From NCBI GenBank assembly GCA_945923775.1, contig CAMELR010000014.1, positions 1 through 58,459 on the forward strand: a DNA stretch of 58,459 nt, written 5' to 3'. The notes beneath the pieces are model-generated. The model saw nothing but the letters and a program-made list of their open reading frames with translations, was not told the DNA's origin and ran no database searches. The DNA is from an uncultured Clostridia bacterium (GTDB lineage Bacteria; Bacillota; Clostridia; Oscillospirales; Ruminococcaceae). Below, piece after piece: positions 4,271-58,221 of this stretch. The position numbers were made by a program, and so were the translations under genes. Every line of letters begins with the position of its first letter. Position 1 is the first letter of the stretch.

Positions 4271-4312
4271 CCCTCTTAATTGTGAAAACCACATGAAATG
4301 TTAAGTGCCTAC

Positions 4313-4463: not shown

Positions 4464-4524
4464 AATAAGGCAACTAATCAATGCGAATGGCATGACAGAC
4501 AACAACACAAGGAGGAATAAAAGC

Positions 4525-6306: not shown

Positions 6307-6320
6307 GGAGGCGGAAACAG

Positions 6321-8255: not shown

Positions 8256-8273
8256 GTCAGCAGAATAACACAG

Positions 8274-8310
8274 CGGCAGGTCGATAAGTCGGCCTGCCGA
8301 TTTTGTATTA
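8274..8310. terminator. Terminator between ABC operon and convergent gene
   Basis: CGGCAGG / CCTGCCG stem (8274-8280 and 8293-8299) followed by ATTTTGTATTATTTTT. Confidence 0.7.
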
Positions 8311-9420
8311 TTTTTGAAGTGCCTTGTAGTACCAGTCCGGAGTATCGCCGAAATCCTCCGCAAGCTTGTCGCCGTATTCATCGCGAATCTTGGCGCAGAG
8401 CAGCGCGAATTCCCGGAGGATAGGCTGCGACTCGCCTTCCTTTTCCATTTCGTAATTTTGCTCGGCAAGTGTGTTGATATCAAAGTTGCAGCCGCTAATA
8501 TCCAGCCACACGCGGAAGGTGTACCCATCGGAAAGTTTCTGAATATACGCGCGGTATGTGAATCCGTGGCTGTCGCGGCAGTAATATTCGCCCAGCCAGC
8601 CGGGATTTCCCTTTTGGTGCGTGAATCCCGTTCCGGCGAACGCCTTTTTCATCACCGGGATATCCGCAAGATGAGGGATCGGCTTCTTGTCACTGCTGTA
8701 TGTATAACGCTTTGGCATGGGAAGCATTTTTTTCATAACCCCATCAAGATACTTGAAGTGATTCGCTTTAAGCTCTGTGAATCTATTGTTTTCTTCCCTG
8801 GAGAAAACGCATTTCGTTTTTGCTTCAACAGGATTTCCGAGATAGGGTGTCAGCTTTTGGATAACGATGGAGGAATCACGCGGTTCGGGGTCGGCTGTGA
8901 CCTCGATACATACCAAAATCATAACGCGTTTCAGACCGTCGTCATAGCATCGTTCCTGCGCAATATAGTTCGAGAAAAAGTGAACGTTTGTGAGTTTGGA
9001 AATATCAGCATTTTCCCATAATAAGTCGGGAGCGGGCGCGGAGGTTTCTTCACCGAGCCAGTTCACGCCGCTGAGCAGGACGTGCCCGAACGGAATATTA
9101 AAGGGGCGCGGTATTTTTGAAAACACTGCGAAGATATCGTCATAGTCCGATTTATCGGCGAAAAGCTCCCCGGATAACCAGTTTTCCGTGTAGCTGCATA
9201 TCATCGGTTCATCTTCTGCTGATTTGAAGTACTTTTTAAGTTCCGGCAGCTTTTCAAGCACATTTGATATAGTCCTGTCACTGGATACGGTACTTGCCGC
9301 AAATGCAAGGTCAGACCAGCCAAACCCAAGCTCCGAAAGCATATTCTGAATGTATGACTGAGCGTCCTTAAACTTTACTTTATCCGCGATATTGAACCTG
9401 TATATATTGAAAACTCTCAT
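8308..9420 (-). CDS. Protein of unknown function, 370 residues
   Basis: I do not recognise this family. The protein is soluble, acidic and aromatic-rich, with no signal peptide or membrane segment. Its C-terminal third (from about residue 240) has a compact pattern ending in a predicted helical segment. The ATG at 9420 is chosen rather than the upstream ATG at 9438 because GAGGT lies 6 bases ahead of it. A good promoter (TTGACA at 9485-9490, TATACT at 9462-9467, minus strand, 17-bp spacer) drives it as a single gene. Codon use resembles the neighbours except that it is somewhat less GC-rich, so it may be a later arrival. Confidence 0.65.
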   Translation of the reverse strand: MRVFNIYRFNIADKVKFKDAQSYIQNMLSELGFGWSDLAFAASTVSSDRTISNVLEKLPELKKYFKSAEDEPMICSYTENWLSGELFADKSDYDDIFAVFSKIPRPFNIPFGHVLLSGVNWLGEETSAPAPDLLWENADISKLTNVHFFSNYIAQERCYDDGLKRVMILVCIEVTADPEPRDSSIVIQKLTPYLGNPVEAKTKCVFSREENNRFTELKANHFKYLDGVMKKMLPMPKRYTYSSDKKPIPHLADIPVMKKAFAGTGFTHQKGNPGWLGEYYCRDSHGFTYRAYIQKLSDGYTFRVWLDISGCNFDINTLAEQNYEMEKEGESQPILREFALLCAKIRDEYGDKLAEDFGDTPDWYYKALQK

Positions 9421-9495
9421 GATTACCTCAAAAACCATTTGATTTTGTTTGTGATGATATCAGTATAGCATAAGAAGCAGAAAATGTCAATAGAA

Positions 9496-9536
9496 AAGGG
9501 AGAACCTTTCGATTCTCCCTTCAGTTTGTCAAAAAA
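9496..9536. repeat. Inverted copy of the aspS terminator hairpin (left arm)
   Basis: A GGGAGAACC...GGTTCTCCC-type hairpin followed by CAGTTTGTCAAAAA. It is a near-identical inverted copy of the hairpin at 9841-9881, so the palindromic repeat between them is framed by two outward-facing arms. Confidence 0.7.
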
Positions 9537-9570
9537 ATTGTTGTTTGGCGGTGAATTAGGCTGAGATTAT

Positions 9571-9808
9571 GTTTCCGAAACAGTCCACTGGACTGTTTCG
9601 GAGGATAGGCGTTAGCAAGACTTAATGCGGCTCGTGGGGGAAAACTCTTGTTTTCCCCCACACCCCTTTAGCGCTTTTTTCCGTTTAGCTGCGCGCCGGC
9701 GCGCAGAGTTTCCGCGCTTCTGCGCGGAGGTTTCGCCTTCGGCGACGAGGGCGCTGCCCTCGACTCGCAAGGGGGACTAGTCCCCCTTGACTCCCGATTG
9801 GGGGTTGC
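9571..9808 (+). repeat. Modular palindromic repeat, copy A
   Basis: About 240 bp without coding potential, built of consecutive perfect palindromes. They include a 13-bp-arm hairpin around CAGTCCACTGGACTG, GCGCGCCGGCGCGC, CCGCGC/GCGCGG, CGAGGGCGCTGCCCTCG, and GGGGGACTAGTCCCCC ending in GGGGTTGC. A second copy in the opposite orientation lies at 20481-20768. Stems differ between copies by compensatory changes, showing the structure itself is kept. It resembles REP/MITE-like dispersed elements; the mobilising enzyme is not visible. Confidence 0.75.
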
Positions 9809-9840
9809 TGGAAGGCGAAATGCACTCGCGCAAATTCTAG

Positions 9841-9881
9841 TTTTTCGACAAGCTGAAGGGAGAACCTTTCGGTTCTCCCTT
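9841..9881 (-). terminator. Terminator of aspS
   Basis: On the minus strand a GGGAGAACC / GGTTCTCCC hairpin follows the aspS stop codon within 20 bp. It is the right-hand member of the inverted pair that frames the palindromic repeat. Confidence 0.65.
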
Positions 9882-9897
9882 AGTGTTATTCTGAAAA

Positions 9898-11670
9898 TCA
9901 CATCTGCTTGCGAACCTTGATGTGAACCTCGCGGAGCTGCTGCTCTGTAACCTCGGTAGGCGCGCCGAGGAGCAGATCCTGCGCGTTGGAGTTCAGCGGG
10001 AACGCGATTACCTCGCGGATACTCTCCTCGCCGGTGAGCAGCATGATCATGCGGTCAACGCCGGGAGCCATACCAGCATGAGGCGGAGCGCCGAACTTGA
10101 ATGCGTTGTAGAGCGCACCGAACTTGCTTGCAACGTCCTCCTCGGTGTAGCCTGCGATCTCGAACGCCTTGATCATGATGTCGAGGTCGTGGTTGCGGAC
10201 AGCGCCGGAGGAAAGCTCAACGCCGTTGCATACGATGTCGTACTGATAAGCGAGGATATCCAGCGGATCCTTGTTCAGCAGTGCGTCCAGACCGCCCTGC
10301 GGCATGGAGAACGGGTTGTGTGTGAAGATGATCTTTCCGGTCTCCTCGTCAAGCTCGTACATCGGGAAGTCAACGATGAAGCACAGCTCGAAGCGGCTCT
10401 CGTCGATTAGGTTCATGCGCTTTGCGACCTCGGTGCGGATCTGTCCGGCGAACTTCGGAGCGTTCTTCTTGGTGTCGGCGATGAAGTAAAGCACGTCGCC
10501 TTCCTGGAGCTCGCAGCGGGTCGCCAGCTCCTTGCGCTGGTCGTCGTTGAGGAACTTGTCGATCGGGCCGTTGTACTTGAACATGCCGTTCTCGCCCGGC
10601 TCTACCTTGAAGTAGCCCAGACCCTTCATGCCGACTTCCTGTACTGCGAAGTCCTCCATGCTCTTGAAGAAGGTCTTGGACTGCTTAGCCATTCCGGGAA
10701 CGCGGATACCACGTACGGTCTTTTTGCAGAAGGGCTTGAAGTCGCTGTCAACGAACAGGTCTGACAGTTCCTTGATCATCAGCGGGTTGCGCAGGTCAGG
10801 CTTGTCTGAACCGTAGGTGAGCATTGCTTCCTTGTAGGTTATGCGTCTGAACGGAGCAGGGGACACCTGCTTGTCGGAGAATTCGGAGAAGGTCGCGGAA
10901 AGGACTTCCTCAGCCACTGCGAAAACGTCCTCCTGGGTAGCGAAGCTCATCTCAAAGTCGAGCTGATAGAACTCTCCAGGGGAACGGTCGGCTCTTGCGT
11001 CCTCGTCGCGGAAGCAGGGAGCGATCTGGAAGTACTTGTCGAAGCCGGAAACCATGTAGATCTGCTTGAAGATCTGCGGAGCCTGCGGCAGAGCGTAGAA
11101 CTTGCCGTGGTGCTTACGGCTGGGGATCAGGTAGTCTCTTGCGCCCTCAGGGGAGGAGGTGGACAGGATAGGAGTCTGAAGCTCCAGGAAGCCCATGCTG
11201 CTCATCTTGTTGCGCAGGAAGCTGATTATCTTGGAACGGAGCACGATGTTGTCGTGCATTTTCTTGTTTCTGAGGTCGAGGTAGCGGTACTTCAGGCGGA
11301 CGTCCTCGCGGGTCTCGCGGGAGGTAGCCACTTCGAACGGAAGCTGCTCCGTTACCTTGCCGAGGATACGTACTTCCTCAGCCTCGATCTCGACCGTACC
11401 GGTCTCTATCTTGTCGTTGTAGGTGCTTTCATCGCGCTTTAAAACGGTGCCTGCGATGGAAACCGCGCACTCCTTGTGAATGCCCTCGAGCAGCTTCTCA
11501 TTGTGGAACACTACCTGAACTACGCCGTAGTGGTCGCGCAGGTCGACGAACATGATACCGCCGTGGTCGCGGATATTCTCTACCCAGCCGGCAGCCCTTA
11601 CCTTTTTGCCTATATCGTTTTCAGTCACCGCGTTGCAGTACTGCGTGCGGTATTCGTTTTCTCTGAACAA
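9898..11670 (-). CDS. aspS: Aspartate--tRNA ligase (class II)
   Basis: This enzyme charges tRNA-Asp with aspartate in the cytoplasm. It is a full-length bacterial-type AspRS of about 590 residues. The N-terminal OB fold includes RDHGGIMFVDLRDHYGVVQV. Class II motif 2 is FRDEDARADRSPGEFYQLD. The bacterial insertion (GAD) domain spans about residues 285-410, and motif 3 is PPHAGMAPGVDRMIMLL. Candidate starts are all TTG. The TTG at 11670 has AAAGGA nine bases upstream, whereas the TTG at 11688 has no ribosome site, so 11670 is preferred. It is transcribed alone from the promoter at 11826-11854. Confidence 0.96.
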   Translation of the reverse strand: MFRENEYRTQYCNAVTENDIGKKVRAAGWVENIRDHGGIMFVDLRDHYGVVQVVFHNEKLLEGIHKECAVSIAGTVLKRDESTYNDKIETGTVEIEAEEVRILGKVTEQLPFEVATSRETREDVRLKYRYLDLRNKKMHDNIVLRSKIISFLRNKMSSMGFLELQTPILSTSSPEGARDYLIPSRKHHGKFYALPQAPQIFKQIYMVSGFDKYFQIAPCFRDEDARADRSPGEFYQLDFEMSFATQEDVFAVAEEVLSATFSEFSDKQVSPAPFRRITYKEAMLTYGSDKPDLRNPLMIKELSDLFVDSDFKPFCKKTVRGIRVPGMAKQSKTFFKSMEDFAVQEVGMKGLGYFKVEPGENGMFKYNGPIDKFLNDDQRKELATRCELQEGDVLYFIADTKKNAPKFAGQIRTEVAKRMNLIDESRFELCFIVDFPMYELDEETGKIIFTHNPFSMPQGGLDALLNKDPLDILAYQYDIVCNGVELSSGAVRNHDLDIMIKAFEIAGYTEEDVASKFGALYNAFKFGAPPHAGMAPGVDRMIMLLTGEESIREVIAFPLNSNAQDLLLGAPTEVTEQQLREVHIKVRKQM

Positions 11671-11825
11671 TTCCTTCAATCCTTTCAATATATAAATTGT
11701 CGCCGCCTGACAGGCGGAAAAGTTACTCAGCTACGGTCACAGCGATTATGACCGGCATTGTTATGCCGCATTATATCACAGCCTTTCGGCACAGAGTTCC
11801 CCTGCGCCACATAATTCAACAATTT

Positions 11826-11854
11826 ATTATATCACTAAAATGCGGAATTGTCAA
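11826..11854 (-). promoter_or_regulatory. aspS promoter and structured leader
   Basis: Minus-strand TTGACA (11849-11854) and TATAAT (11826-11831) are 17 bp apart. The roughly 150-nt leader contains hairpins such as CCGCCTGACAGGCGG (11703-11717) and CGGCAT/ATGCCG. I saw no T-box specifier/antiterminator core. Confidence 0.8.
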
Positions 11855-11908
11855 TATTTTATACGGTATACGCGAAAATTTACCCGGAAATTTTCCGGAG
11901 CCGCCTGC

Positions 11909-12226
11909 TCACATCTCTTTCAGCTCGTAATAACCGAATCTGTCGTTGATGGTGAACGCGTCGCAGCCCTCGATGTACCGTATGCTGTATTCCGAGCCGT
12001 TGTTCATCACAAGAACGCCCTCTGTCGTTCCCCTTTTCAGCAGCGGAGCGTCCGCTTTGCAGCTCCAGTCAGCGCCGGAGATCGGGATAACTCTGCCGTT
12101 TATCTCCACATGCTCCATATCTGAGGGCGAAACGAAGTTCCCCATCATGAACGCCAGCGCTCCGGCGAGTATCGCCAGCAGTGCGCCTCCGGTAACAAAA
12201 GTCGCCATGAATCCTAATTTGTTCAT
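11909..12226 (-). CDS. Small single-pass membrane protein of unknown function
   Basis: This is a 105-residue protein with one N-terminal membrane segment (about residues 8-29). The small extracytoplasmic domain carries two Cys residues about 47 residues apart (about C56 and C103). I recognise no family. AAGGGG precedes the ATG. It lies between aspS and the VanW gene on the same strand, with about 125 bp to the upstream gene, so it could be read through from the VanW promoter. Confidence 0.55.
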   Translation of the reverse strand: MNKLGFMATFVTGGALLAILAGALAFMMGNFVSPSDMEHVEINGRVIPISGADWSCKADAPLLKRGTTEGVLVMNNGSEYSIRYIEGCDAFTINDRFGYYELKEM

Positions 12227-12350
12227 ATAATTACCCCTTTCCGCCGCCTTCCGCTCTGCGGAAGTTCCCCCGGCGATGATCCTGCGCGGTATGCGCTCCG
12301 ACGCGGTTCCGGAACGCGCCGCGCGTATTGCCCAAGTTTGCTCAATGAAT

Positions 12351-13205
12351 TCAAGTGAGCCGTCTTAACCCGGGAGTGATTATCTGGCTGCTGGGTATAA
12401 GCGAGTAGTCGTACATCACCTTTGAATGGTTGTCCAGCACCAGTTCCCGGCGTATCACCCGGCGCTCCTGGTCGAGTACCACGCGGTACACCCGGCTGAC
12501 CCGGAAGAACTCGCCGTCCTCCTCGATGTAGCCCTGATCCTCCTCGGTTATGCGGTATATGTATGGGAACGGCTCCTGTGCGCGGAGCTCGCCGTACAGC
12601 GTGCTCTCGTCCAGCCAGACCAGAAGCTGCACCGGACGGTCGCTCGTGTTTTTGAAACGGTAGTCCACGTTTTTGTAGAAAACGCTGGTGCCGATTCCGA
12701 ACGGCACCCGTCTGCCGGAATCAGGGAAGAGCGCGTCAGAATGGTGCACCAGTTCGGTCACGGTGAGCGGGCTGTTCAGCACCAGCCAGTGTATCAGATT
12801 CGCGAGCTGGCACAGCCCTCCGCCGACTCCGCGCCCGAGTTTCCCGGCGCTTATCACAAGTCCGTCAAGGTATCCGCGCTTTGCTGAGGGTTCGCCGACG
12901 AGCTTCCAGAACGAGAACGTTTCCCCTGGCTGAACGACTATCCCGTTTATCTGCGCCGCAGCAAGCCGGAGGTTCACCAGCTTGTTTCGCTGGAGCTCCA
13001 TATCGACTCCCTCCAGGCGGCGCAGCGCGTTGGAGGAGTGGCTCTTAACAACAGCGCTGAACGGAACTGTGTTGCGGGTACGGGCGAATGTTTCTCCGCT
13101 GAATCTGTCGTGGATATCTCTGAGCAGATATTCTTTCCGAAGTGAAATGTGATAGCAAGCCGGTGACAGTTCGCAGAACAATTTTCGTTTTTTTATGGCA
13201 GACAC
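12351..13205 (-). CDS. VanW family protein
   Basis: This VanW-domain protein is about 281-284 residues long. Characteristic stretches are KLFCELSPACYHISLRKEY at the N-terminus, RNKLVNLRLAAAQINGIVVQPGETFSFW in the middle, and GRGVGGGLCQLANLIHWL. VanW proteins accompany some glycopeptide-resistance clusters and many surface proteins; their biochemical role is unsettled. There is no signal peptide here. The start is odd. The GTG at 13205 overlaps its own ribosome site, while the homologous start position is an ATA at 13194-13196, placed ideally 6 bases after GGAGGTG. No vanR/S or ligase genes are near, so a resistance role is not suggested. Confidence 0.85.
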   Translation of the reverse strand: MSAIKKRKLFCELSPACYHISLRKEYLLRDIHDRFSGETFARTRNTVPFSAVVKSHSSNALRRLEGVDMELQRNKLVNLRLAAAQINGIVVQPGETFSFWKLVGEPSAKRGYLDGLVISAGKLGRGVGGGLCQLANLIHWLVLNSPLTVTELVHHSDALFPDSGRRVPFGIGTSVFYKNVDYRFKNTSDRPVQLLVWLDESTLYGELRAQEPFPYIYRITEEDQGYIEEDGEFFRVSRVYRVVLDQERRVIRRELVLDNHSKVMYDYSLIPSSQIITPGLRRLT

Positions 13206-13232
13206 CTCCGTTTCACGACATTCTCTATAATT

Positions 13233-13260
13233 ATTATAGCAGATTTTTGCAGGAAGTCAA
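13233..13260 (-). promoter_or_regulatory. Promoter of the VanW gene
   Basis: TTGACT (13255-13260) and TATAAT (13233-13238) on the minus strand, 16-bp spacer. Confidence 0.65.
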
Positions 13261-13324
13261 TTACAGTTGTATTACGATTTGGTTACAAAACGGTTACAAG
13301 TGTTGTGAATCACCGGAATTAAAA

Positions 13325-13352
13325 ACCGGACAGCCTTGCAAAACTGTCCGGT
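13325..13352 (-). terminator. Terminator of the choloylglycine hydrolase gene
   Basis: ACCGGACAG / CTGTCCGGT stem followed on the minus strand by TTTTTAA. Confidence 0.8.
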
Positions 13353-13361
13353 GAGCGGTGT

Positions 13362-14336
13362 TCAGTTCTGGAAATAAACGTCTTCCTGCTGGAGCATGGG
13401 GTATCTTATCAGCTCCCGGCTGTCGAGGTCGGCGCGGTGCATATCTACGGCGCTGATACGGCGGTTGAGGTAGGTCGTGTAGTAGTACACTCCGGTCTGG
13501 GCGTTCCAGCAGGAGGTGTAGATCGTGATCTCGAACTTTCCGGGCGCGACCTCGCAGCAGCCGCGGGTCTGCTCCACGGAGCTGAGAATGTGGAAAAACT
13601 GCTCCACGCTCTCCGCCTCGGAGCTTCCGGAGCGGGAGTTGTTCCGCGTGAATGCGACCCGCGCGAACCTCGAAGCGGACGAAAGGTCGCCGGGAAGCCC
13701 GACCGCGCCCATTCCGCGGCTGTAGCGGGTGAGCTCCAGGCCTTCCGCGAAGGTGTTCTGCGGGTCTCTCGGGGAAAGCCCCATGTAGTTGTTGAGCATT
13801 GCCATCTGCTGTTCGAATGGGGGATTGTTCGTCAGCACTCCCGCCTTGTTTTCGTGGATCTGCAGCCCCTTTTCGGTGGACTCCACCACGATACAGCCCG
13901 ATTTGTCCGCGATTATCCAGTGGAGCTGAGCGGCTGGGAGCTGCTCACTGAACGGCGTTCCGGTGAGGTTCATTCCGGAGATAAGCTCCCGAGCCTGGGA
14001 AAGCTCCGCGCACTGGGAGAGTACCCAGGGGATAAACTCGAACTGCGCGACGTTCCGCACGCCTTCGCGCGGCTGGGCGTACTTCGCGTTGCCCACGAAA
14101 TTCAGCCCCGCCATGCCGAGCCCCTTCTCGTTCACGGCGTCGTAGTAGAGCGGGTAGCCTCCCGCAACGTGAGCCATTCCGATGATCGCGTAGTGATTCG
14201 AGAGAGTTCCTTCGTGCCGGAATTCAAACGGGAATTCCCGCGGAGTTATCGTGATCTCCTCGCCGTATGAAAATTCGTAATCCAGGGTCCTTCCCATGTA
14301 GAAGCATTCCGTCTGGTAGGTCGCCGCAGTGCACAT
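13362..14336 (-). CDS. Choloylglycine (bile salt) hydrolase, Ntn family
   Basis: This 324-residue linear-amide hydrolase is cytoplasmic and has no signal peptide. The Met is followed by the nucleophile Cys2, exposed after Met removal. The residues known from Clostridium perfringens CBAH all have counterparts: Arg16 and Asp19 in GRTLDYE, Asn79 in GLNF, Asn170 in GVLTNN, and Arg223 in SASRFARVAF. Overall similarity to CBAH is high along the whole length (GLPGDLSSASR, FFHILSSVEQTRG, YTSCWN). It would cleave glycine/taurine conjugates of bile acids, although penicillin V acylase activity cannot be excluded from sequence. It has its own promoter (14393-14421) and terminator. Confidence 0.9.
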   Translation of the reverse strand: MCTAATYQTECFYMGRTLDYEFSYGEEITITPREFPFEFRHEGTLSNHYAIIGMAHVAGGYPLYYDAVNEKGLGMAGLNFVGNAKYAQPREGVRNVAQFEFIPWVLSQCAELSQARELISGMNLTGTPFSEQLPAAQLHWIIADKSGCIVVESTEKGLQIHENKAGVLTNNPPFEQQMAMLNNYMGLSPRDPQNTFAEGLELTRYSRGMGAVGLPGDLSSASRFARVAFTRNNSRSGSSEAESVEQFFHILSSVEQTRGCCEVAPGKFEITIYTSCWNAQTGVYYYTTYLNRRISAVDMHRADLDSRELIRYPMLQQEDVYFQN

Positions 14337-31294: not shown

Positions 31295-31371
31295 CTGGGT
31301 GTGGCGCAGATTGGTAGCGCGCTACCTTGGGGTGGTAGAGGCCGCAGGTTCAAATCCTGTCACTCAGACCA
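31295..31371 (+). tRNA. tRNA-Pro (GGG), integration target
   Basis: 77 nt, CTGGGTG / CACTCAG acceptor, anticodon loop TTGGGGT reading GGG, encoded CCA. Its last 48 bases are repeated exactly at 40959-41006, showing it is the attachment site of the neighbouring element, which keeps the tRNA intact. Confidence 0.96.
31324..31371 (+). repeat. Left attachment repeat (attL) within tRNA-Pro
   Basis: 48-bp direct repeat, identical to 40959-41006, from ACCTTGGGGTGG to CACTCAGACCA. Confidence 0.93.
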
Positions 31372-31423: not shown

Positions 31424-31443
31424 TATACGGGAAAAATCCCGAT

Positions 31444-31499
31444 AGTGCGCTATTAGTGCGCCATTACCGTTAAATCTCCCTTAACGATACTTAACAACA
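31444..31499 (+). repeat. Left-end paired direct repeats (probable integrase arm sites)
   Basis: AGTGCGCTATT (31444-31454) is followed at once by AGTGCGCCATT (31455-31465), period 11. The same unit occurs three times near the right end (40825-40864). A second pair, CTTAACGATA / CTTAACAACA with period 10, is at 31480-31499. Shared repeats at both ends of an element are typical of arm-type sites bound by the integrase N-terminal domain. Confidence 0.7.
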
Positions 31500-31539: not shown

Positions 31540-32769
31540 TCATGAGATGTTTTTCTCCTTTTCAGCAGGCTTTTGCAGCAGCATAATATCAAGAGCTTTC
31601 GCCGCCTCTACGTCCGCTTCTTCCAGAACATGAAGATATTTGTTCGTGGTTTCAATGTCGCCGTGTCCTAGCCGTCCTTGAACTTGTTTGATGTTTACGC
31701 CGGCATAGAGCAGCAATGTAGCCGATGTGTGCCGCAGGCTGTGAAATTTCCGGTGCCGTAAGCCGTGCCGCTCCAGGAACTTGCTGAACTGTTTCGTTGG
31801 AGTTTGCGGGTTCATTATTTCGCCGTTCCAGGTAGTGAACAGCCAGCCGCCGTTTATCCACTGAGTTCCGAGCCGAGCCGCCTCTCTTGCCTTTTCGACT
31901 CTCAGCAGCTTTATCAGCTCCAGGCAGCTTTGATTTACTGTTACGGTTCGCACCTCGTAGTCTTTCGGGGGCTTGATTACCGTCTTTTGCCCTTTGAGCT
32001 TTACCGCCGCTCGTTCAATGGTGATCTTCGACTGCTCAAAATCCACATCGGAGAATTTCAGCGCAACCAGTTCACCGCGCCGCGCTCCCATGAAGATAGC
32101 AAGCTGTATCAGGGTCTGAAACTGGATATCCTCTGTTTCCAGACAAGCCAGCATTTGAGCGGCTTCCTGTTTGCTGAATATCTCAATTTTCGGCTGCTTG
32201 ACTTTCGGGATCGTCAGCTTTTCGGTCTTTGCAGGCGTTTCCGGTATCAGTCCGAGCTTGACAGCCTGCTTGAATATTGACTGCAACACGGTCAGATATC
32301 GCCTGATCGTAGAGGGGGAGATCGTTTCGCCGCTCTCTTTCTCCCCTGCTCTGGTGGATTTCGGCATTTCCGAAAGCTGCTGTATATACTGCTGAACGTG
32401 AGCGGCTGTGATGTCCTTTAGCTTGAAATGCCCCAGCGCAGGGACAATAAGGCTCCTGATCTGCTCCTGATAGAATGCATATGTTGTAGGCGATAACGTT
32501 CCCTTTGCGATTTCAAGATACTTTTCGCAGAAGTCGGAAAGCCTGATCGTAGGGTCAGCCACACCGCCGCGCATACACTTTTCCTCAAACTGCACCGCCT
32601 GACGGTTCAGCTCCTTTTCAACCTGCTTTGCGGTCATGCCGGGTTCGGGCTTATAGGTCATTGTGTACGGTTTGAGCCTGTTTCCGCTGCTGTCATAGCC
32701 GCGATATACCCTGATCGTGTAGCTGATGATCTCGCCGGATTTATTCTTTCTTGGGGTTATTGCTGCCAT
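31540..32769 (-). CDS. Tyrosine site-specific integrase
   Basis: This is a 409-residue phage/ICE-type integrase. An N-terminal arm-binding region (RVYRGYDSSGNRLKPYTMTY) precedes a SAM-like core-binding domain (about 75-195). The catalytic domain carries Arg in MGARRGELVAL, His-x-x-Arg in HSLRHTSATLLLYAG, His in GRLGHGD and the nucleophile Tyr in NKYLHVLEEA. It sits about 170 bp from the attL repeat, pointing toward it, the classical place for a tRNA-site integrase. Its start overlaps the end of the XRE regulator by 29 bp, so regulator and integrase are co-expressed. Confidence 0.95.
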   Translation of the reverse strand: MAAITPRKNKSGEIISYTIRVYRGYDSSGNRLKPYTMTYKPEPGMTAKQVEKELNRQAVQFEEKCMRGGVADPTIRLSDFCEKYLEIAKGTLSPTTYAFYQEQIRSLIVPALGHFKLKDITAAHVQQYIQQLSEMPKSTRAGEKESGETISPSTIRRYLTVLQSIFKQAVKLGLIPETPAKTEKLTIPKVKQPKIEIFSKQEAAQMLACLETEDIQFQTLIQLAIFMGARRGELVALKFSDVDFEQSKITIERAAVKLKGQKTVIKPPKDYEVRTVTVNQSCLELIKLLRVEKAREAARLGTQWINGGWLFTTWNGEIMNPQTPTKQFSKFLERHGLRHRKFHSLRHTSATLLLYAGVNIKQVQGRLGHGDIETTNKYLHVLEEADVEAAKALDIMLLQKPAEKEKNIS

Positions 32770-33757
32770 TGTTGGGCGCTCCTTTCTGCTCTTTCAGCTT
32801 GAAATTTTCATCGTATTTGTCGAGGTAGGTTTGAAGTGCCTTAGCCTCTAGCAGATCTATTTCAAATCTTTCTTGATAAAATTCTTTTAACTGCTTGTCG
32901 TTTTGGGTTTGCGCGATGTAATTATTTGCTTCATCAAGCTTATCAATCAAACTCTTTCTAATTTTCTGGTTCTTCTCCGCAAAGTATATAGAAAAATCAG
33001 CATTTGCCTGAGTATCTTCAATCAATGCGTCTATCCCCTTTGATAGTTTAAAATGTTCGAGATCGGCATTATCCTGATAGCATGATGAACAATCAGCCTG
33101 CGAATTAATATAAAAGCCTAAATCGCTTTCTAACATTTCATCAAATTCACGCTTAATCAGATTGTAAATATATTCGCTGTCGGTCTTTCTAAAGCAATCG
33201 CTCCCGCAGTTTTGACAGTCAATTATATCATCGGGATTATGTTCATTATACCGTCGGCACTTGGGCTTGCCTAAGCAATCACCATTTAGCCTTAAACCGT
33301 CAAAAAATTCATCGTCATTTATTACCGGATCAATGACCTGCTCCCAATACTTTTTATTTATCGCAATCCGCTCCAGTTCGCCGAGATGTTCAATAACACC
33401 TTTTATTCGACTGTTTTCTAACAGCAGATTAACCTTTAATCCTTTGCTATTAATTTCTACAAGGTTATTGACTGCTTTTTCAGATAGCCCCGTAACCTCG
33501 CACGCAACATGGATTTTTTGTGACGGATCAACGCTCCGAACATCAGAACGCCCAAGCAGGTAATCAGCAGAAACATTGTAATAATCGGCGAGTTTGGCAA
33601 GAACCACGACATCAGGAACACGCAAACCTTTTTCGTAATATTCAAGGCTGGCGCGGCTTATTTCCAGCTCGTCAGCGGCTGTTTGCCGGGAAACGCCTTT
33701 TATTTCCCTCTGCTCAATAAGCCTTTGCGGGAAAATCTCTTTTGTATTTGCATTCAT
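32741..33757 (-). CDS. XRE-family regulator with long Cys-rich C-terminal domain
   Basis: This is a 338-residue protein. Residues 10-72 form a Cro/CI-type HTH (LIEQREIKGVSRQTAADELEISRASLEYYEKG, then YYNVSADYLLGRSD), about as in phage repressors. The remaining 260 residues are unusual. They are helical and acidic with a cluster of cysteines (about 165-255: GDCLGKPKCRRY, DCQNCGSDCF, DCSSCY), which suggests a metal-binding or redox-sensing module, followed by a coiled coil. It is probably the element's main repressor, acting on the divergent region 33760-33940. It lies upstream of and overlaps the integrase gene. Confidence 0.8.
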   Translation of the reverse strand: MNANTKEIFPQRLIEQREIKGVSRQTAADELEISRASLEYYEKGLRVPDVVVLAKLADYYNVSADYLLGRSDVRSVDPSQKIHVACEVTGLSEKAVNNLVEINSKGLKVNLLLENSRIKGVIEHLGELERIAINKKYWEQVIDPVINDDEFFDGLRLNGDCLGKPKCRRYNEHNPDDIIDCQNCGSDCFRKTDSEYIYNLIKREFDEMLESDLGFYINSQADCSSCYQDNADLEHFKLSKGIDALIEDTQANADFSIYFAEKNQKIRKSLIDKLDEANNYIAQTQNDKQLKEFYQERFEIDLLEAKALQTYLDKYDENFKLKEQKGAPNNGSNNPKKE

Positions 33758-34413: not shown

Positions 34414-35268
34414 ATGTCAGATTTATTCAGCGGGTTTGCGCAGGAGCTTTCAGAAAAAGCCCGGAACGCGAACCCGGAACCAGAAAAGCAGTACATGGGC
34501 GAGGACGGTTTCCTTCATTGCAGTATCTGTCATGAGCCGGTACAGATGAAAGCGCCGGAGGAATGCCGCAACATCTTTCCCAGCGGAATAATGGACAAGC
34601 ATTTCCGCTGTGTAAGGGAGCGAATCGAACGTGACGAGGCAGAACGGAAACGCCGGAAAGCAGAGGAACGCATTGCCGAGCTCCAGCGGATATGCTTCAC
34701 AGACCCGGCGTATATGCGGCATACATTCGAGCAGGACAAGGGATATTCTCCGGCAGCCCGCAAAGTAGCCGAATGGTACGTTGATACATACCACGAGCGG
34801 CGTGCGAACAACGAGGGCTTAATGTTCATGGGCGACACTGGAACGGGCAAGACTTTTTACGCCTGCTGTATCGCAAACGCGTTGATACGCAAAGGCGTTG
34901 CGGTTTGGGTCACAACCATGCAGCCGCTCCTCCGGAAAGCCGGAGATTTCAGCAAGGCTGACGAGGTAATGCGCCAGGTGCAGAGCATTGACCTGCTGAT
35001 ACTCGACGATTTCGGCACCAGCCAGAACAGCGCCCGTAATCTCGATCTTATGTTTGAGATAATCGACACCAGAGCGCGCAGCGGTTTGCCGCTGATAATC
35101 ACAACGAACCTTGCGCCGCATGATTTCAAGGAGCCGCCGCTCGAACTCAAACGCATATACAGCCGGATAAAAGAGATGTGCTGGAGCAGCGCAGACAGCC
35201 CGGTCAGAATGAGCGGCGCGGATCTCCGTGAGATCCGGGCAAAGAGCGCACACAATTACGGAAAATAA
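34414..35268 (+). CDS. DnaC/IstB-like AAA+ ATPase, putative helicase loader
   Basis: This 284-residue protein has an N-terminal Cys/His zinc-finger-like segment (CSICHEPV about residue 32, with HFRC about 70) and a charged coiled coil. The AAA+ domain has Walker A GDTGTGKTF, Walker B LLILDDFGTS and sensor-1 LIITTN. This is the DnaC/DnaI helicase-loader arrangement seen in phages and integrative elements, where it recruits the host replicative helicase to an element origin. AGGAGG precedes the ATG. The large repeat-rich non-coding region begins immediately downstream, a plausible place for such an origin. Confidence 0.82.
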   Translation: MSDLFSGFAQELSEKARNANPEPEKQYMGEDGFLHCSICHEPVQMKAPEECRNIFPSGIMDKHFRCVRERIERDEAERKRRKAEERIAELQRICFTDPAYMRHTFEQDKGYSPAARKVAEWYVDTYHERRANNEGLMFMGDTGTGKTFYACCIANALIRKGVAVWVTTMQPLLRKAGDFSKADEVMRQVQSIDLLILDDFGTSQNSARNLDLMFEIIDTRARSGLPLIITTNLAPHDFKEPPLELKRIYSRIKEMCWSSADSPVRMSGADLREIRAKSAHNYGK

Positions 35269-36245
35269 AAAAGCCCTGCAAAGCCATTGACGTGGTTTGT
35301 CTGGTTTTTCGTAAGAAAAAAGCCGCCCTGACGGCGGCGAGGGCAAACATACGGAGCGAAGCGACCAACTTCTGAACTCACAGAGCAAACCCTATTGCTT
35401 ATATTATATCTCAAAAAGGGGTTGACTTATAAGCGGAGTTGACTATTTATAGACAGCATTTTCCGCCTCCCAAAGGGCGGGAAAATGCGGAGGTGTTGCG
35501 CCAATTCGCAATAACGCCGGTCAACAATTCTCGGCTTTAATTTCCTACCGCCGTACCGCCTCCGGTTCAAGTTCTTTCAAGTTTTGCGCCGCTCGCTGAT
35601 GTGTAGTTTTGTCAAGGTTCTGGACTTATACGCACACGAGCGGGTAACAGGTTTTCACAAGTTCGCCCCCGTTTACGCGCGCGTGAAAGGTCAAGTTTTG
35701 TCAGGTTTTTTCTCCGAAGAAGCCGGGCGGCTTACAGCTCAATCAGGCGGATAAACGCCGATGTTCTGAAACCCCATAGCGGGAAAAATAACTCAGGTTT
35801 TCTCAGGTTCGCCGCTCTGGGTTACGCTAACAAATGCTAACCTCTCTCGCGCGTGGAACCGTAGCAAAACGTAGCAATTCCCGCTATAATTTCGCCGTCA
35901 AAAATCTCAACGAACAGAGAGCGAACAGAGAGAAAATCGCACTTTGAACTCCGAGCGAACTCCGAGAAATTCCGGGTTGAACCTCGAGGGAACCTCGAGA
36001 ATTAACGCCGAGAACGGCACCGAAATGTTAGGAAATGTTAAGGTTGAGCCGCTCATAATATTGATAGGAAATGCTAGGGTTCTGCTCCATATATGCCAGT
36101 AAAGGAGAGAGCCGCTCACGTGCCCGGAAAGGCGCACAAGGAGCGGCTCTTTTGCGGTATAGGTAGTTACACCCCTCCGACCAGAAACGCGCCCAGAGCG
36201 GCGCAGAACGCAAAAGGGAGCGCACACCGCGCTCCCTCTGCCATA
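35269..36245. other. 977-bp non-coding region of the element
   Basis: I see no credible gene. The region starts with a GCCGCC/GGCGGC hairpin (35321-35337) after the DnaC-like gene. It then has an inverted repeat CATTTTCCGCC ... GGGCGGGAAAATG (35457-35488), a TTGCG/CGCAA hairpin (35496-35511), and a GTTGACTTATAAGCGGA / GTTGACTATTTATAG direct repeat (35421-35453). From 35566 on it carries the array of paired direct repeats. It may be a replication or partition region. Confidence 0.6.
35566..36082 (+). repeat. Array 1 of paired 10/11-bp direct repeats
   Basis: Twelve pairs, each two tandem copies of one short unit: 35566 TTCAAGTTCT/TTCAAGTTTT; 35601 and 35645 weaker; 35690 GTCAAGTTTT/GTCAGGTTTT; 35792 CTCAGGTTTT/CTCAGGTTCG; 35826 GCTAACAAAT/GCTAACCTCT; 35860 CGTAGCAAAA/CGTAGCAATT; 35911 CGAACAGAGAG twice; 35945 TGAACTCCGAG/CGAACTCCGAG; 35978 TGAACCTCGAG/GGAACCTCGAG; 36022 GAAATGTTAG/GAAATGTTAA; 36063 GATAGGAAAT/GCTAGGGTTC. 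Starts of neighbouring pairs are mostly 33-35 or 41-45 bp apart. Units differ between pairs but match within a pair. Confidence 0.8.
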
Positions 36246-36641
36246 TTACTGCACGTGCAGCTCATTTTTCAGCCCGTTCTGTAACACCTGCGAGAAGTTC
36301 AGCCCCGCCCGTTCTGCCATAGTGTTTAACCATGCCGGAATTGTGAGGGTTTTCTTTACCGCCTTGTTATCGTAGTAGCGGCGATACTCGAGCGTATCGC
36401 ACATAACCAGAGTGACGATCTCTCCCTCTCCTGCCTTGACCGCCTTAATGTCGCTCGCTGCGGGGATTGCTTTGCCGTTCTCCTCCATGTTGTAGAGGGT
36501 CAAACACAGCGCGTCAGAGGCTGCCTCGAGCCCGTCTGCCATGTCCTCGCCCTGCGTGAAGCAGTTGCTCAAATCGGGGAATGTGATTGAATAGCCCTCG
36601 CTCTCGGGCTTGAAAATTGCCGGATATACGTATTTAGCCAT
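36246..36641 (-). CDS. hicB: HicB-family antitoxin
   Basis: This 131-residue protein begins with the partial RNase-H-like HicB fold (YVYPAIFKPESEGYSITFPDLSNCFTQGEDMADGLEAASDAL). It ends with a ribbon-helix-helix DNA-binding tail (KKTLTIPAWLNTMAERAGLNFSQVLQNGLKNEL). It neutralises the HicA mRNA interferase and represses the operon. It is encoded downstream of HicA; AGGAGG precedes the ATG. Confidence 0.9.
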   Translation of the reverse strand: MAKYVYPAIFKPESEGYSITFPDLSNCFTQGEDMADGLEAASDALCLTLYNMEENGKAIPAASDIKAVKAGEGEIVTLVMCDTLEYRRYYDNKAVKKTLTIPAWLNTMAERAGLNFSQVLQNGLKNELHVQ

Positions 36642-36678
36642 TGTGTAACCTCCTTATATAGCCCAGCGGCTAGGGGGC

Positions 36679-36864
36679 TTATTTCAGCCCCGCCGCTTTT
36701 CTTATGCTCTGCTCTGTACCGTTCTTGACCTCCTCGGTGTTATGTCTGCCTACCGGGAAAGATTCGCTGGTCACTGGGCTGTACCATAGCTCGTGGCGTT
36801 TGCCCTCTCGGACTAGGTAACAGCCGATTTTCTTTAGCTGCCGCTTTATCTCTCCGTATGTCAC
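36679..36864 (-). CDS. hicA: HicA-family mRNA interferase toxin
   Basis: This 61-residue protein matches the HicA double-stranded-RNA-binding fold: an N-terminal GEIKRQLKKIGCYLVREGKRHELWYSP, with the catalytic His in the RHELW segment, and the C-terminal GRHNTEEVKNGTEQSIRKAAGL. It cleaves mRNA when freed from HicB. The start is the GTG at 36864, six bases after AGGAGGT; a longer frame upstream would begin inside the promoter. The promoter at 36889-36917 carries a 10-bp direct-repeat pair. Confidence 0.9.
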   Translation of the reverse strand: MTYGEIKRQLKKIGCYLVREGKRHELWYSPVTSESFPVGRHNTEEVKNGTEQSIRKAAGLK

Positions 36865-36888
36865 CTCATGACCTCCTCTCTGTATATT

Positions 36889-36951
36889 ATTATAGCACGT
36901 ATTAGCACGTGTGTCAATAGGTTTTTGAAAAAAATATGTATTTACACGTGT
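36889..36951 (-). promoter_or_regulatory. hicAB promoter and operator repeats
   Basis: Minus strand TTGACA (36912-36917) and TATAAT (36889-36894), 17-bp spacer. The spacer is a tandem pair TAGCACGTAT / TAGCACGTGT (36893-36912, period 10). A related palindrome ACACGTGT lies at 36944-36951. These are probably the HicB operator. Confidence 0.75.
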
Positions 36952-37122
36952 TTTTTTATTATCTCCGATAGAGGAGAGAGAATGCAGGCAGATTTTCAAT
37001 AACCGGGCTTAATTCTTGAAAAACGGGCTCTTAATTTGAAAAATCGTCACAAAATCAGCCTAAAATTGAAATTAACACGCCCATTTTGCGAATTTTCCGC
37101 AAAATCAACGTTGTAAATTGTA

Positions 37123-37601
37123 CCTAAGAAACGCTAAGGTTCGCGCACGTGCGAGGACATCGAAGCAAGAGCGAAGCTAGAGAACCGGCGCAAAAATGCG
37201 CTCGTTCGGAGATGTTCCCGACATAAAAGGCGGGGACATATAAGCGCCGCTCAGAGGCTCGGAGCTACAACGAAGTGAGAGCGAAGTGAGAGAACTGCCG
37301 CCCAGAGCAGTAGCCCTCAGAACGAGGGGGAGTCAATTTGACTTTGCCTTGAACAGTCGAGAACGCCGCCGACCGGGCGCGGTTCTCCTGCTCCTTATGC
37401 TCGCAGCCGTTCCGATCGAGGAGGCGGGAGCTGCTGAAATGCTTAGAAATGCTTAGATTGAAAACGCCTAGCAGCCGGAGCAAATCACCTAGAACCCGGA
37501 ACGAACCACCAAAACCCCGGAGCGGAACGCCTAAGACTGGTATACTCTTGCAGGGCTAAACGTGGCACGGCGGCAAATCTGGAGCGTTTGAGAGCGTTTC
37601 A
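37123..37601 (+). repeat. Array 2 of paired direct repeats, including a 21-bp tandem repeat
   Basis: Pairs: 37123 CCTAAGAAAC/GCTAAGGTTC; 37161 CGAAGCAAGAG/CGAAGCTAGAG; 37271 CGAAGTGAGAG twice; 37436 GAAATGCTTA twice; 37582 GAGCGTTTGA/GAGCGTTTCA. At 37465-37540 a 21-bp unit (consensus CRCCTARNAMCCGGARCRAA) is repeated about 3.6 times. The CGAANNNNGAG frame is the same as in array 1 and in the same orientation, although the two arrays are separated by hicBA. Confidence 0.78.
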
Positions 37602-37920
37602 GAATATAGCCACCATTCCGGATAGAAAAAGAGCCGCTCTTTAGTGAGCGGCTCCTCCAATTTTGTCCAGTCAACCGGACGTTTTGCGCAGTCGTGTATT
37701 TTGTGCAATCGAGTTCACAAGCTCTCCCCCCTTTTGCCGGAAATCCTCGCGCGGAGCTCTCGACCTCTCGAGGCTCTAACCCCATTCCCAGTAAGGAATG
37801 AACCCACAGACCGCACAACAGAGCCAAGCAAGGCAAACCAACGCCGGGCATTGAGCGGCTCTCCTCTCCCCGCTGCCACTCGAAAAAGGGGGGGAGTGTT
37901 TGGTAAAGCCAAAAATGCCG

Positions 37921-38045
37921 GGGTGATATAGTTTGCTCTGAATTGAGTGCAAATCGCTTAAAATTTGCCGCATTTTTGCCCGAAAAAGCCCGATTTTCGC
38001 CCGAAATACAAAACTATATCACCCAAAACGGCAAAAGTGATATAG
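37921..38045. repeat. Long inverted repeat GGGTGATATAGTTT with internal phased repeats
   Basis: GGGTGATATAGTTT (37921-37934) and its exact complement AAACTATATCACCC (38011-38024). TGCCG/CGGCA flanks extend the symmetry, and a third half-site GTGATATAG lies at 38037-38045. Inside the loop GCCCGA recurs at 37978, 37988 and 37999 (10- and 11-bp steps). It has no coding sense and may be an origin- or partition-type site, or an operator. Confidence 0.65.
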
Positions 38046-38133
38046 GTAGTGTAATTTTTTCGTGAACAGAAAAAGAGCCGCTCCCTCCGGAACGGCTCCT
38101 CTTACTATTCGGCGCTCTGGTCCTCTCCGCTGC

Positions 38134-38406
38134 TCATTTCTTGAATAAATCCGAATGGGTACCCGTGCGGTATAACTGGAGCTCTCCGGCGGTCTGCTTA
38201 TAAACGAGGAGCCAATCAGGCTCGATGTGGCATTCCCGATAACCGGAATAGTTCCCGGTCAACTGATGGTCTTTATTCTTTTCCGGAAGAGCGGCGGGAA
38301 TACGCAGCGTATCAATGGCAGTGTGCAGCAGTTCCATTTTGTAGCCGCGCTTTGCGCAGGTCTTAAAGTCCTTTTTGAATATGGACGAAAAGCGTACATC
38401 AAGCAT
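38134..38406 (-). CDS. YafQ/RelE-family mRNA interferase toxin
   Basis: This 90-residue toxin of the RelE superfamily, YafQ branch, has FSSIFKKDFKTCAKRGYKMELL at the N-terminus. The C-terminal HIEPDWLLVYKQTAGELQLYRTGTHSDLF contains the expected His, Tyr and Phe of the active site. It would cut ribosome-bound mRNA. The ATG at 38406 follows GGAGGA by 7 bases; the antitoxin stop lies immediately upstream, so the two are translationally coupled. Confidence 0.88.
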   Translation of the reverse strand: MLDVRFSSIFKKDFKTCAKRGYKMELLHTAIDTLRIPAALPEKNKDHQLTGNYSGYRECHIEPDWLLVYKQTAGELQLYRTGTHSDLFKK

Positions 38407-40958: not shown

Positions 40959-41006
40959 ACCTTGGGGTGGTAGAGGCCGCAGGTTCAAATCCTGTCACTC
41001 AGACCA
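40959..41006 (+). repeat. Right attachment repeat (attR)
   Basis: Exact 48-bp copy of the tRNA-Pro 3' half; not a functional tRNA gene because the 5' half is missing. Confidence 0.93.
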
Positions 41007-41267: not shown

Positions 41268-41924
41268 TTATTCTTTCAGACTCTCCAGGAACTCAATCGC
41301 CTCATAAACCGTTGAAAACGTCAGGCACTGAGTACAAAGCCACCGGTTTCTATCATCGGTGTCCTCAACACCTGGTAATCCCTGTGACAGAAGATTGGTG
41401 ACGGTCTTTCTTGCGTTTATTACGGCGGTAGGATAATTGACTGCGATTTTTGAAATCGCATCGAAATCACCTTTTTTATAGGAAGGCTCTTTTGAGGTAA
41501 GTTTGTTCAGCATTCGCTCTTTTTCCGCAACTGTCTGAATTGACGGAGCTGACATCTCATAGTGAAGCATGAGCCAATACTCAATACAGCCGGTAGTCAT
41601 CAATAGCCGTATGCGGATATTTGGTCTCTTCCGCAGGATTCTCAAACGCTTGATGATACGCATTCTGCTGTCCCACTTTGGTACATCTACGGTTTCCACA
41701 TCGAAGAAAAACCATATCTCGTCTGTTACTTCGGCATTATTCTTATATTTCTGGTCATTCCTGTATTTCCCGTCAGCTTCGTCAAAGGTACCGGTTGATT
41801 TCGGGCGATGAATAACGGCAATGTCACGGAATTTCTCTCTAAGGAAGTCAGTGTATGCCTGCTCGCTTTCGCCCTCGCAGAATACTTCAATATATGGTTT
41901 CTCCTTTTTGAGTTTACGAGGCAT
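41268..41924 (-). CDS. RloB-domain protein (probable phage-defence partner)
   Basis: This 218-residue protein begins KPYIEVFCEGESEQAYTDFL, the typical RloB opening with its conserved Glu. The acidic motif EIWFFFDVETVDVPKWDSRM is also TOPRIM-like. RloB proteins form two-gene modules with an AAA ATPase; the same combination occurs in the lactococcal AbiL abortive-infection system and as R-linked ORFs in restriction loci. It overlaps the ATPase gene by one base (TAATG). A nuclease role is inferred from family resemblance. Confidence 0.8.
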   Translation of the reverse strand: MPRKLKKEKPYIEVFCEGESEQAYTDFLREKFRDIAVIHRPKSTGTFDEADGKYRNDQKYKNNAEVTDEIWFFFDVETVDVPKWDSRMRIIKRLRILRKRPNIRIRLLMTTGCIEYWLMLHYEMSAPSIQTVAEKERMLNKLTSKEPSYKKGDFDAISKIAVNYPTAVINARKTVTNLLSQGLPGVEDTDDRNRWLCTQCLTFSTVYEAIEFLESLKE

Positions 41925-57162: not shown

Positions 57163-57197
57163 TAAGTTATTCAGGCGGTGCGTTCATGGCTGAGTTA

Positions 57198-57608
57198 TCA
57201 GCCGATCGCAATGTACTTGTTCTGCTTCTCAGGGAGTGCCTCCTTCTTGGGCACTGTCAGTTTCAGCGTGCCGTTTTCGAACTTCGCACTGATGTCCTGC
57301 TCTGTTACTGCGTCGCCGACGTAGAAGCTCCTTGAGTAACTGCCGGAGTAACGCTCGCGGCAGATGTACTTGCCGTTTTCGTCCTTTTCGTCCTTTGAGG
57401 TGTCGCTCTCGGCGCTTATAGTCAGATAACCATCGTTAAGTTCAGCCTTGATGTTGTCCTTCTTGACGCCCGGCAGATCAATGGTGAGATCGTAGCAGTT
57501 GTCGTGCTCCTTGATGTCGGTTTTCATCATGTTGCTTTCTGTTCTGGTGAAGAACGGTGTATTGAAAAAGTCATCAAAAACATTGTTTCTCATGGTGGGG
57601 ATTAACAT
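57198..57608 (-). CDS. Hsp20/alpha-crystallin small heat-shock protein, copy 2
   Basis: This 136-residue small heat-shock protein has an alpha-crystallin domain from about residue 28 (TDIKEHDNCYDLTIDLPGVK) with the conserved NGTLKLTVPK, and a C-terminal tail. It holds unfolding proteins in oligomers. It differs from the upstream copy at about 13 of 136 positions (roughly 90 percent identical), a recent tandem duplication. AAAGGAG precedes the ATG. It lies downstream of copy 1 with a 72-bp gap, presumably in one transcript. Confidence 0.93.
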   Translation of the reverse strand: MLIPTMRNNVFDDFFNTPFFTRTESNMMKTDIKEHDNCYDLTIDLPGVKKDNIKAELNDGYLTISAESDTSKDEKDENGKYICRERYSGSYSRSFYVGDAVTEQDISAKFENGTLKLTVPKKEALPEKQNKYIAIG

Positions 57609-57680
57609 AAGTCATTACTCCTTTCGCAAGTATTTAGGCTTGCTGTGAATTTGCTGTAAATTTATTGGTCAATTGGCTGA

Positions 57681-58091
57681 TCAGCCGATCGAGATGTACT
57701 TGTTCTGCTTCTCAGGAAGCGCCTCTTTCTTGGGTACTGTCAGCTTCAGCGTGCCGTTCTCGAACTTCGCGCTGATGTCCTGCTCGGTTACTGCGTCGCC
57801 TACATAGAAGCTTCTTGAGTAGCTGCCGGAATAACGCTCGCGGCAGATGTACTTGCCGTTGTCGTCCTTCTCGTCCTTGGACGTGTTGCTTTCGGCGCTT
57901 ACGGTGAGGTAGCCGTCGTTAAGCTCAGCCTTGATGTCCTCCTTCTTGACACCCGGCAGGTCGATCATCAGATCGTAGCAGTTGTCGTGTTCCTTGATAT
58001 CGGTTTTCATCATGCTGCTTTCGCTCTTGGTGAAGAACGGGGTATTGAAAAGGTCGTCAAAAACATTGGTTCTCATGGTGGGCATTAACAT
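57681..58091 (-). CDS. Hsp20/alpha-crystallin small heat-shock protein, copy 1
   Basis: This 136-residue protein is the promoter-proximal copy, with the same domain layout as copy 2. The main differences lie in the N-terminal arm (LFNTPFFTKSESS against FFNTPFFTRTESN), the part that usually sets oligomer form and client choice. It is expressed from a promoter overlapped by a CIRCE operator (58222-58264), so heat induction through HrcA is expected. Confidence 0.94.
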   Translation of the reverse strand: MLMPTMRTNVFDDLFNTPFFTKSESSMMKTDIKEHDNCYDLMIDLPGVKKEDIKAELNDGYLTVSAESNTSKDEKDDNGKYICRERYSGSYSRSFYVGDAVTEQDISAKFENGTLKLTVPKKEALPEKQNKYISIG

Positions 58092-58221
58092 AGGTCATTT
58101 CTCCTTTCGCAGATTCTTGGGTCTGCGCTTGATTTTTATTTTATGAACCCTGAGCGGTCCTCCGGAAGTATCCCTAGGGGGTGTACCTCCTTTGTTCCTA
58201 TCTCTCTTTCGTTCTGGTTAT

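Follow-up and report, generated by a model that had tools for sequence, protein, structure and literature searches.

The window analysed here is a stretch of 58,459 nucleotides from an uncultured Clostridia bacterium of the family Ruminococcaceae (contig CAMELR010000014.1). It contains an element integrated in tRNA-Pro whose non-coding DNA carries an array of paired 10- or 11-bp direct repeats, and the words of these pairs resemble sites within phage genes for the small terminase subunit (terS). The element is bounded by exact direct repeats that start 9635 bp apart, which corresponds to a length of 9.6 kb; its attachment (att) repeats and main genes are as follows.

31324..31371, forward strand: left att repeat, exact 48-bp direct repeat, equal to the 3' end of tRNA-Pro (31295-31371)
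31540..32769, reverse strand: tyrosine integrase (PF00589, E 4.6e-26)
32741..33757, reverse strand: XRE-family regulator (PF01381)
34414..35268, forward strand: DnaC/IstB-like helicase loader (PF01695, phrog_50)
36246..36641, reverse strand: HicB-like antitoxin (PF15919), separating the two halves of the array
36679..36999, reverse strand: HicA toxin (PF07927)
40959..41006, forward strand: right att repeat, exact 48-bp direct repeat

A family scan of the open reading frames (ORFs) yielded a YafQ toxin, a HIRAN protein and an IrrE-like protein as further products of the element. The element ORFs scanned include none for capsid, portal, tail or large terminase, and neither a terS gene nor another packaging site was recognised among them. 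Phage satellites of the phage-inducible chromosomal island (PICI) kind are characterized by an integrase with att direct repeats in the chromosome and by the lack of structural genes, and the element agrees in both respects as far as its ORFs were scanned. Judged by its gene content, the 9.6-kb element is a phage satellite.

The sites of the array are given below, each with its best match to terS genes from other loci (L numbers), expressed as identical bases over compared bases, and the p value from pair-preserving shuffles.

35566..35585, reverse strand: 10-bp pair; two best matches tie, one of them on a PF03592 terS site, p 0.16, not significant
35649..35668, reverse strand: weak 10-bp pair, picked by eye; 19/24 to terS of L123, p 0.005
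35690..35709, reverse strand: 10-bp pair; 20/24 to terS of L126, p 0.010
35790..35809, reverse strand: 10-bp pair (8/10); 18/24 to terS of L136, p 0.03
35826..35845, forward strand: weak 10-bp pair, picked by eye; 18/24 to terS of L149, p 0.015
35857..35876, forward strand: 10-bp pair AACCGTAGCA/AAACGTAGCA; terS match not significant, p 0.66
35911..35932, forward strand: 11-bp pair, CGAACAGAGAG twice; the terS genes of L087 and L088 have the identical pair, 25/26, p 0.005
35945..35966, forward strand: 11-bp pair, GAACTCCGAG twice; word pair shared with terS of L166, 23/26, p 0.005
35978..35999, forward strand: 11-bp pair, GAACCTCGAG twice; 19/26 to terS of L174, p 0.045
36021..36040, forward strand: 10-bp pair; 18/24 to terS of L147, p 0.04
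36062..36081, forward strand: weak 10-bp pair, picked by eye; 19/24 to terS of L128, p 0.005
37126..37145, forward strand: weak 10-bp pair, picked by eye; 19/24 to terS of L128, p 0.005
37161..37182, forward strand: 11-bp pair GAAGCAAGAG/GAAGCTAGAG; 23/26 to terS of L075 (same genus), p 0.005
37271..37292, forward strand: 11-bp pair, GAAGTGAGAG twice; 23/26 to terS of L075, p 0.005
37436..37455, forward strand: 10-bp pair, GAAATGCTTA twice; 18/24 to terS of L136, p 0.02; similar pair near 8331 in L342
37467..37523: 21-bp repeat, 2.7 copies (Tandem Repeats Finder), of a kind unlike the 10/11-bp pairs
37582..37601, forward strand: 10-bp pair GAGCGTTTGA/GAGCGTTTCA; without terS match, p 0.91

A preliminary description of this DNA had reported at least 17 such pairs, and their reality was confirmed by counts against first-order Markov samples of the same stretches, which served as shuffled controls. 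In 35566-36082 and 37123-37601 together, 9-mers repeated with at most one mismatch gave 12 pairs, 7 of period 10 and 5 of period 11, where about 0.2 are expected (means of 0.10 and 0.11, respectively; maximum of 2 in 200 samples). The remaining 23 periods within 6–30 gave none, save one pair each at 15 and 21. Under a strict rule, requiring at least d-1 matches for a period of d, the count was 7 in 35269-36245 and 4 in 37000-38130, compared to shuffle means of 0.01 and 0.07, respectively; these 11 strict pairs were defined without reference to terS, and 9 of them were listed independently by Tandem Repeats Finder. A looser rule of d-2 matches yielded 9 pairs in 35268-36245 (0.34 in shuffles) and 4 in 37000-38140 (0.51), and also 3–10 pairs at the short periods of 7–9, for which this threshold is easier to reach. 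The reported number is attained solely when weak pairs are added, with scores of 8/10 at 35790, 7/10 at 35826, 6/10 at 35649, 36062 and 37126, and 4/10 at 35604. That the pairs would fill the non-coding DNA was overstated, and 37467-37523 is a different, 21-bp repeat. Within the array the pair starts are mostly 30–54 bp apart, with gaps of 100–165 bp also present. With one copy per helical turn and in direct orientation, the sequence places both copies on the same face of the DNA, as had been proposed.

Pairs of this kind also lie inside terS genes of phages and prophages. The GAAC-NNN-GAG pair was found in only one other genome among 43 of the genus, inside the gene directly before the large-terminase gene. 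The gene with this pair encodes a protein of family phrog_2412 and precedes, in L040 and L071, a gene matching large-terminase (TerL) families; the phrog_2412 protein is called TerS here because of its position before TerL. Among phrog_2412 relatives on viral contigs, a pair with at least 9/11 matches was present in 25 of 35 and one with at least 10/11 in 15 of 35, starting at nucleotides (nt) 21–40 of the matched stretch, and the words differed; with the terS of L071 as query against viral sequences, none was confirmed. Prophages of the host family likewise have 11-bp pairs in their phrog_2412 terS genes, and those with terS of the PF03592 (Terminase_2) class often carry a 10-bp pair at about nt 107–120. 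For quantification, we used a library of 106 terS entries (101 distinct: 64 phrog_2412 and 37 PF03592), a subset of the matching loci, which were ranked by protein-match score independently of any likeness to the window. A pair with at least 10/11 matches occurred in 20 of the 64 phrog_2412 genes versus 0/60 downstream and 1/60 upstream stretches, and one with at least 9/10 matches in 7 of the 37 PF03592 genes versus 1/35 downstream stretches. A near-perfect pair is missing from most of the library genes; allowing two mismatches, 38/64 and 15/37, respectively, have one.

In phrog_2412 terS the two copies of a pair change in concert. A protein motif served to anchor 45 of the 64 phrog_2412 genes, which contain 42 distinct pairs; in these, both copies agreed at word positions 4–7 in 93, 74, 62 and 86% of cases, compared to 51, 30, 30 and 47% upon permutation between genes, and the total of 8.05 exceeded the maximum of 2000 permutations, which was 6.62. 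Because the concerted copies are 11 bp apart and occupy different codon frames, the constraint acts on the DNA: selection on the pair in phrog_2412 terS operates at the DNA level. Other 10-bp repeats, for instance AAATGTCCTA, were seen upstream of prophage terS genes (L075 1336-1387, L123 1367, L125 1332 and L127 1365); these are perhaps late-activator sites or additional parts of a pac site.

When the array was compared to the library, 8 of the 11 strict pairs matched one of the 101 distinct terS genes beyond pair-preserving shuffles (p≤0.05). All five 11-bp strict pairs map to phrog_2412 genes at nt 29–35, and the strict 10-bp pairs at 35690, 36021 and 37436 to PF03592 genes. The summed match of the strict pairs was 217, versus a mean of 181.5 and a maximum of 190 in 300 shuffles, and the best matches fell on the terS pair position for 9.7 of the 11, versus a mean of 3.1 and a maximum of 6.8 (300 shuffles; the windows that define this position were fixed after the pair locations in terS were known). 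A set of 20 sites was obtained by adding 35604, 35649, 35790, 35826, 36062, 37126 and three sites in the 21-bp repeat. In this set 13 of 20 reached p≤0.05, the eight 10-bp ones all on PF03592 at nt 105–127, and 15.7 of 20 fell on the terS position, compared to 4.5 in shuffles and 1.1 in random host DNA. The sites match terS in both orientations, and the 13 matching sites had an identity of 0.81, which fell to 0.24 and 0.28 in the 20 bp on either side. A strict site scan, with thresholds set by hand, detected 6 sites in the element and none in the 46 kb of host DNA around it. The three sites from the 21-bp repeat had no significant match to either terS class in pair-preserving shuffles; this repeat may serve a third terminase class. 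The proposal of an array of likely protein-binding sites with varied words is supported by the sequence, whereas the suggested role in replication, partition or regulation, with HicB, ribbon-helix-helix (RHH) or XRE proteins as binders, is unsupported. The words match sites within terS genes. The expected binder is therefore the small terminase of a helper phage, and the likely job DNA packaging.

Similar arrays are present in other elements. Region A of the window, used as blastn query against 50,697 phage records, matched 77 of them (E limit 10, best 4e-3), 71 from Streptococcus; among the best 20 of the 77 matches, 19 were satellite phages of Streptococcus, matched in DNA that bears no annotation. 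Region B gave only weak matches to the phage records and to 247 family genomes. The Streptococcus satellites L116 and L118 contain rows of such pairs in unannotated DNA, and the Javan354 array has two site types in a row. Its first type is identical over 26/26 bases to the terS of phage Javan345 (E 2e-3; PF03592) and over 22/22 bases to 11 Lactococcus records, TP901-1 included (E 0.3 each), 9 of which annotate the matching stretch as terminase small subunit or subunit 1; TerS of TP901-1 matches phrog_51 and phrog_1595, and not PF03592 at E 0.01. The pairs in terS of this Javan345/Lactococcus type have period 11 and start at nt 144–150. The second site type has its match at nt 38 of the gene preceding TerL in EJ-1, Javan316, Javan420 and Javan476, and the pair-bearing proteins of EJ-1 and Javan316 belong to phrog_2412. 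Matches of the Javan354 site types in Cellulophaga, Listeria and Gordonia look like chance. Of 83 rows among the matches listed for the viral loci L222-L301, 32 passed a crude terS-motif test; the remainder comprises chance matches and other sites, partly classified.

A pattern search of 396 family genomes returned 25 with a match, many by chance, and short arrays in G301 and G302. The elements concerned (L342 and L343, respectively) were found by the array pattern alone, and their integrases are 66% and 62% identical to the window integrase; no structural gene was present among the five ORFs scanned in each, and the G301 element is flanked by repeats that, judged by eye, resemble the window att core. 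Under the strict site scan, 1 site was detected in L116, 2 in L118, 2 in L119, 3 in L342, 3 in L343, 1 in L344 and 5 in L235. Strict pairs exceeded the shuffle means in L116 (4 versus 0.07), L118 (2 versus 0.01), L342 (3 versus 0.04), L343 (3 versus 0.02), L344 (2 versus 0.03), L362 (6 versus 0.22) and L235 (8 versus 0.03), but amounted to 1 in L117 (0.03) and 0 in L119 (0.02). L362 (CP094921.1, positions 1-13561) is deposited as plasmid unnamed2 of Apilactobacillus kunkeei HNS-8 and is an exact head-to-tail repeat with a period of 6765 and 100% identity. The unit is an element with an integrase, a P4-type primase and 10-bp pairs in its non-coding DNA, and the plasmid is probably an excised or concatemeric phage satellite.

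We consider it likely that the array serves as a library in which the packaging sites of many helper phages, with two terminase classes, are mimicked. In this reading, phages carry a DNA site inside their own terS gene, at which packaging is expected to start once TerS recognises it. Each mimic would consist of two adjacent 10- or 11-bp words, readable by adjacent helix-turn-helix (HTH) domains of the TerS ring about one turn apart; two ring subunits could thus read equal words in direct orientation. As described for known systems, the pac site of SPP1 overlaps the terS stretch for the DNA-binding domain (PMC6316719), and neighbouring HTH domains in TerS rings are about one DNA turn apart (PMC4737164). 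TerS of L149 (PF03592, host family) is homologous to SF6 TerS (3zqp/3zqq). The word would differ between phages, and the satellite would have collected words for phrog_2412 and PF03592 TerS in both orientations, such that the terminase of an active helper could start packaging on satellite DNA at the matching mimic. From the sequences we infer that TerS binds these sites, that packaging starts there and that each word belongs to one helper.

A number of observations weigh against this reading. phrog_2412 is listed as a family of unknown function and owes its TerS label to its position before TerL, and a Foldseek comparison of its predicted fold to the PDB gave no match (a single row at E 9.7). 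For the strict pairs at 35566, 35857 and 37582 no terS match reached significance, and exact scans for GAACCTCGAG, GAAGTGAGAG and GAAATGCTTA gave 0 matches in viral contigs. The choice of the weak sites (35604, 35649, 35826, 36062, 37126 and the three in the 21-bp repeat) was made by eye, in some cases after the likeness to terS had been noticed, which makes their p values flattering. Period-10 repeats are as frequent upstream of PF03592 terS (7/35) as inside the genes, and the PF03592 terS of Javan345 has an 11-bp pair at nt 150, so the host-family link between period and terS class is not universal. The strict site scan gave 0 sites in 13 loci fetched as integrase/DnaC relatives and in the satellites L117 and L362; the expectation that homologous elements retain pairs while the words change was borne out in L342 and L343. 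Finally, in vitro binding of pac by the isolated SF6 TerS domain is reported to be non-specific (PMC4737164), an argument against a simple reading of words. Our confidence was lowered very slightly, as some weak sites were chosen with terS in mind and the period-class link is not general.

The same terS matches would be expected of a decoy array, in which the sites soak up TerS of many phages and block packaging while the satellite itself is packaged otherwise. Satellites often interfere with their helper phages, and decoy and packaging roles could coexist in the array. A decoy by itself, however, offers no spread for the satellite, and among the scanned ORFs neither another packaging site nor a terS gene was recognised; we regard it as unlikely. 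The position of the array directly after the helicase-loader gene could suggest iterons of a replication origin, bound by an initiator of the satellite or its helper beside the DnaC-like gene, and 11-bp repeats are found just upstream of dnaC in the relatives L032, L033, L036 and L039. Plasmid and phage iterons are, like the window pairs, short direct repeats with a spacing near one helical turn, but their unit is constant, whereas the array words vary from pair to pair and match terS sites. Moreover, arrays occur in satellites whose annotation lists VapE or a P4-type primase in place of DnaC. We consider an origin very improbable; the variant with a helper initiator was dropped as the window words match terS. 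The distinction from iterons drawn in the preliminary description is in line with this variation, and so is that from CRISPR, in which the repeat is constant, while here the repeated part is the variable one. The repeats upstream of dnaC, located in these phage or prophage relatives at 5509-5550 (L033), 5613-5680 (L036, inside ORF 5114-5986), 3421-3510 (L039) and 4785-4840 (L032), are perhaps replication iterons themselves.

Regulator genes adjoin the array and late activators act near terS, as would fit operators of an element regulator (HicB or XRE) or of a phage late activator. Against this, the phage sites sit within the terS coding sequence, a single regulator needs no pair-specific words, and L342 carries an array though HicA and HicB are not among its five scanned ORFs; operators are, like an origin, very improbable. 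We give the least credit to the idea that the pairs are remnants of degraded terS genes: a few of them do read as terS codons, but identity drops to 0.24 and 0.28 in the 20-bp flanks and the sites match in both orientations. Target duplications from transposition were also dropped, given the resemblance to terS and the family pattern common to the words.

A library of packaging-site mimics would extend what is known of satellites. SaPIbov5-type islands carry the helper cos site. The 11capE element has a 258-bp region in common with its helper cos site (PMC10111431), and one or two packaging sites of a helper have already been described on satellites (PMC10111431, PMC13376191). Such satellites copy one or two sites, whereas the window has a row for two TerS classes and many words. 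The pac sites of the SPP1/SF6 type lie over the terS stretch for the DNA-binding domain and have direct repeats (PMC6316719, PMC4737164), and the window words likewise match terS; SPP1 pac, likened here by its description, is one large phage site, whereas the window has many short, differing words in a satellite. The Streptococcus Javan satellites bear an integrase and, in L116 and L118, rows of pairs like the window, but differ in host and other genes; the terms packaging, terminase and direct repeat do not occur in the main text of the paper that describes them (PMC6813308). The authors of the report on phage-inducible chromosomal minimalist islands (PICMI) state that they were unable to identify a cos or pac site (PMC10803314). 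In the titles and abstract openings of the open-access literature searched, no description was found of an array of different terS-type sites.

Recognition of the start site by TerS has been called 'unclear and controversial' (review PMC9611059), and matching of helpers to satellites by cos or pac is described as held back by motifs that are small, degenerate or unknown (review PMC11389934). A two-word repeat with phage-specific words would provide a testable recognition code, from which one could predict which phages move which satellites, and a packaging library would explain the mobility of one satellite among many different helpers. On balance, we find it plausible that Bacillota satellites of several lineages maintain libraries of packaging addresses that are gained and lost as helpers change, and that the paired words are a TerS recognition code from which the helper range may be read.

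Further pairs lie near the ends of the element.

31443..31464, forward strand: 11-bp pair TAGTGCGCTAT/TAGTGCGCCAT beside the left att site; similar pairs in the relatives L062, L063 and L068
40823..40844, forward strand: arm-type 11-bp pair beside the right att site, from tandem-repeat detection

Such att-proximal pairs recur next to some related integrases and are probably integrase arm sites, separate from the packaging array. L342 (4314 and 11184) and L343 (4119 and 13241) also have 11-bp tandem pairs near their ends, with a word specific to each element. An RloB-like gene is located at 41268-41924, immediately outside the right att site, and a tandem duplication with a period of 483 bp and 88% matches is present at 57197-58111 of the window.

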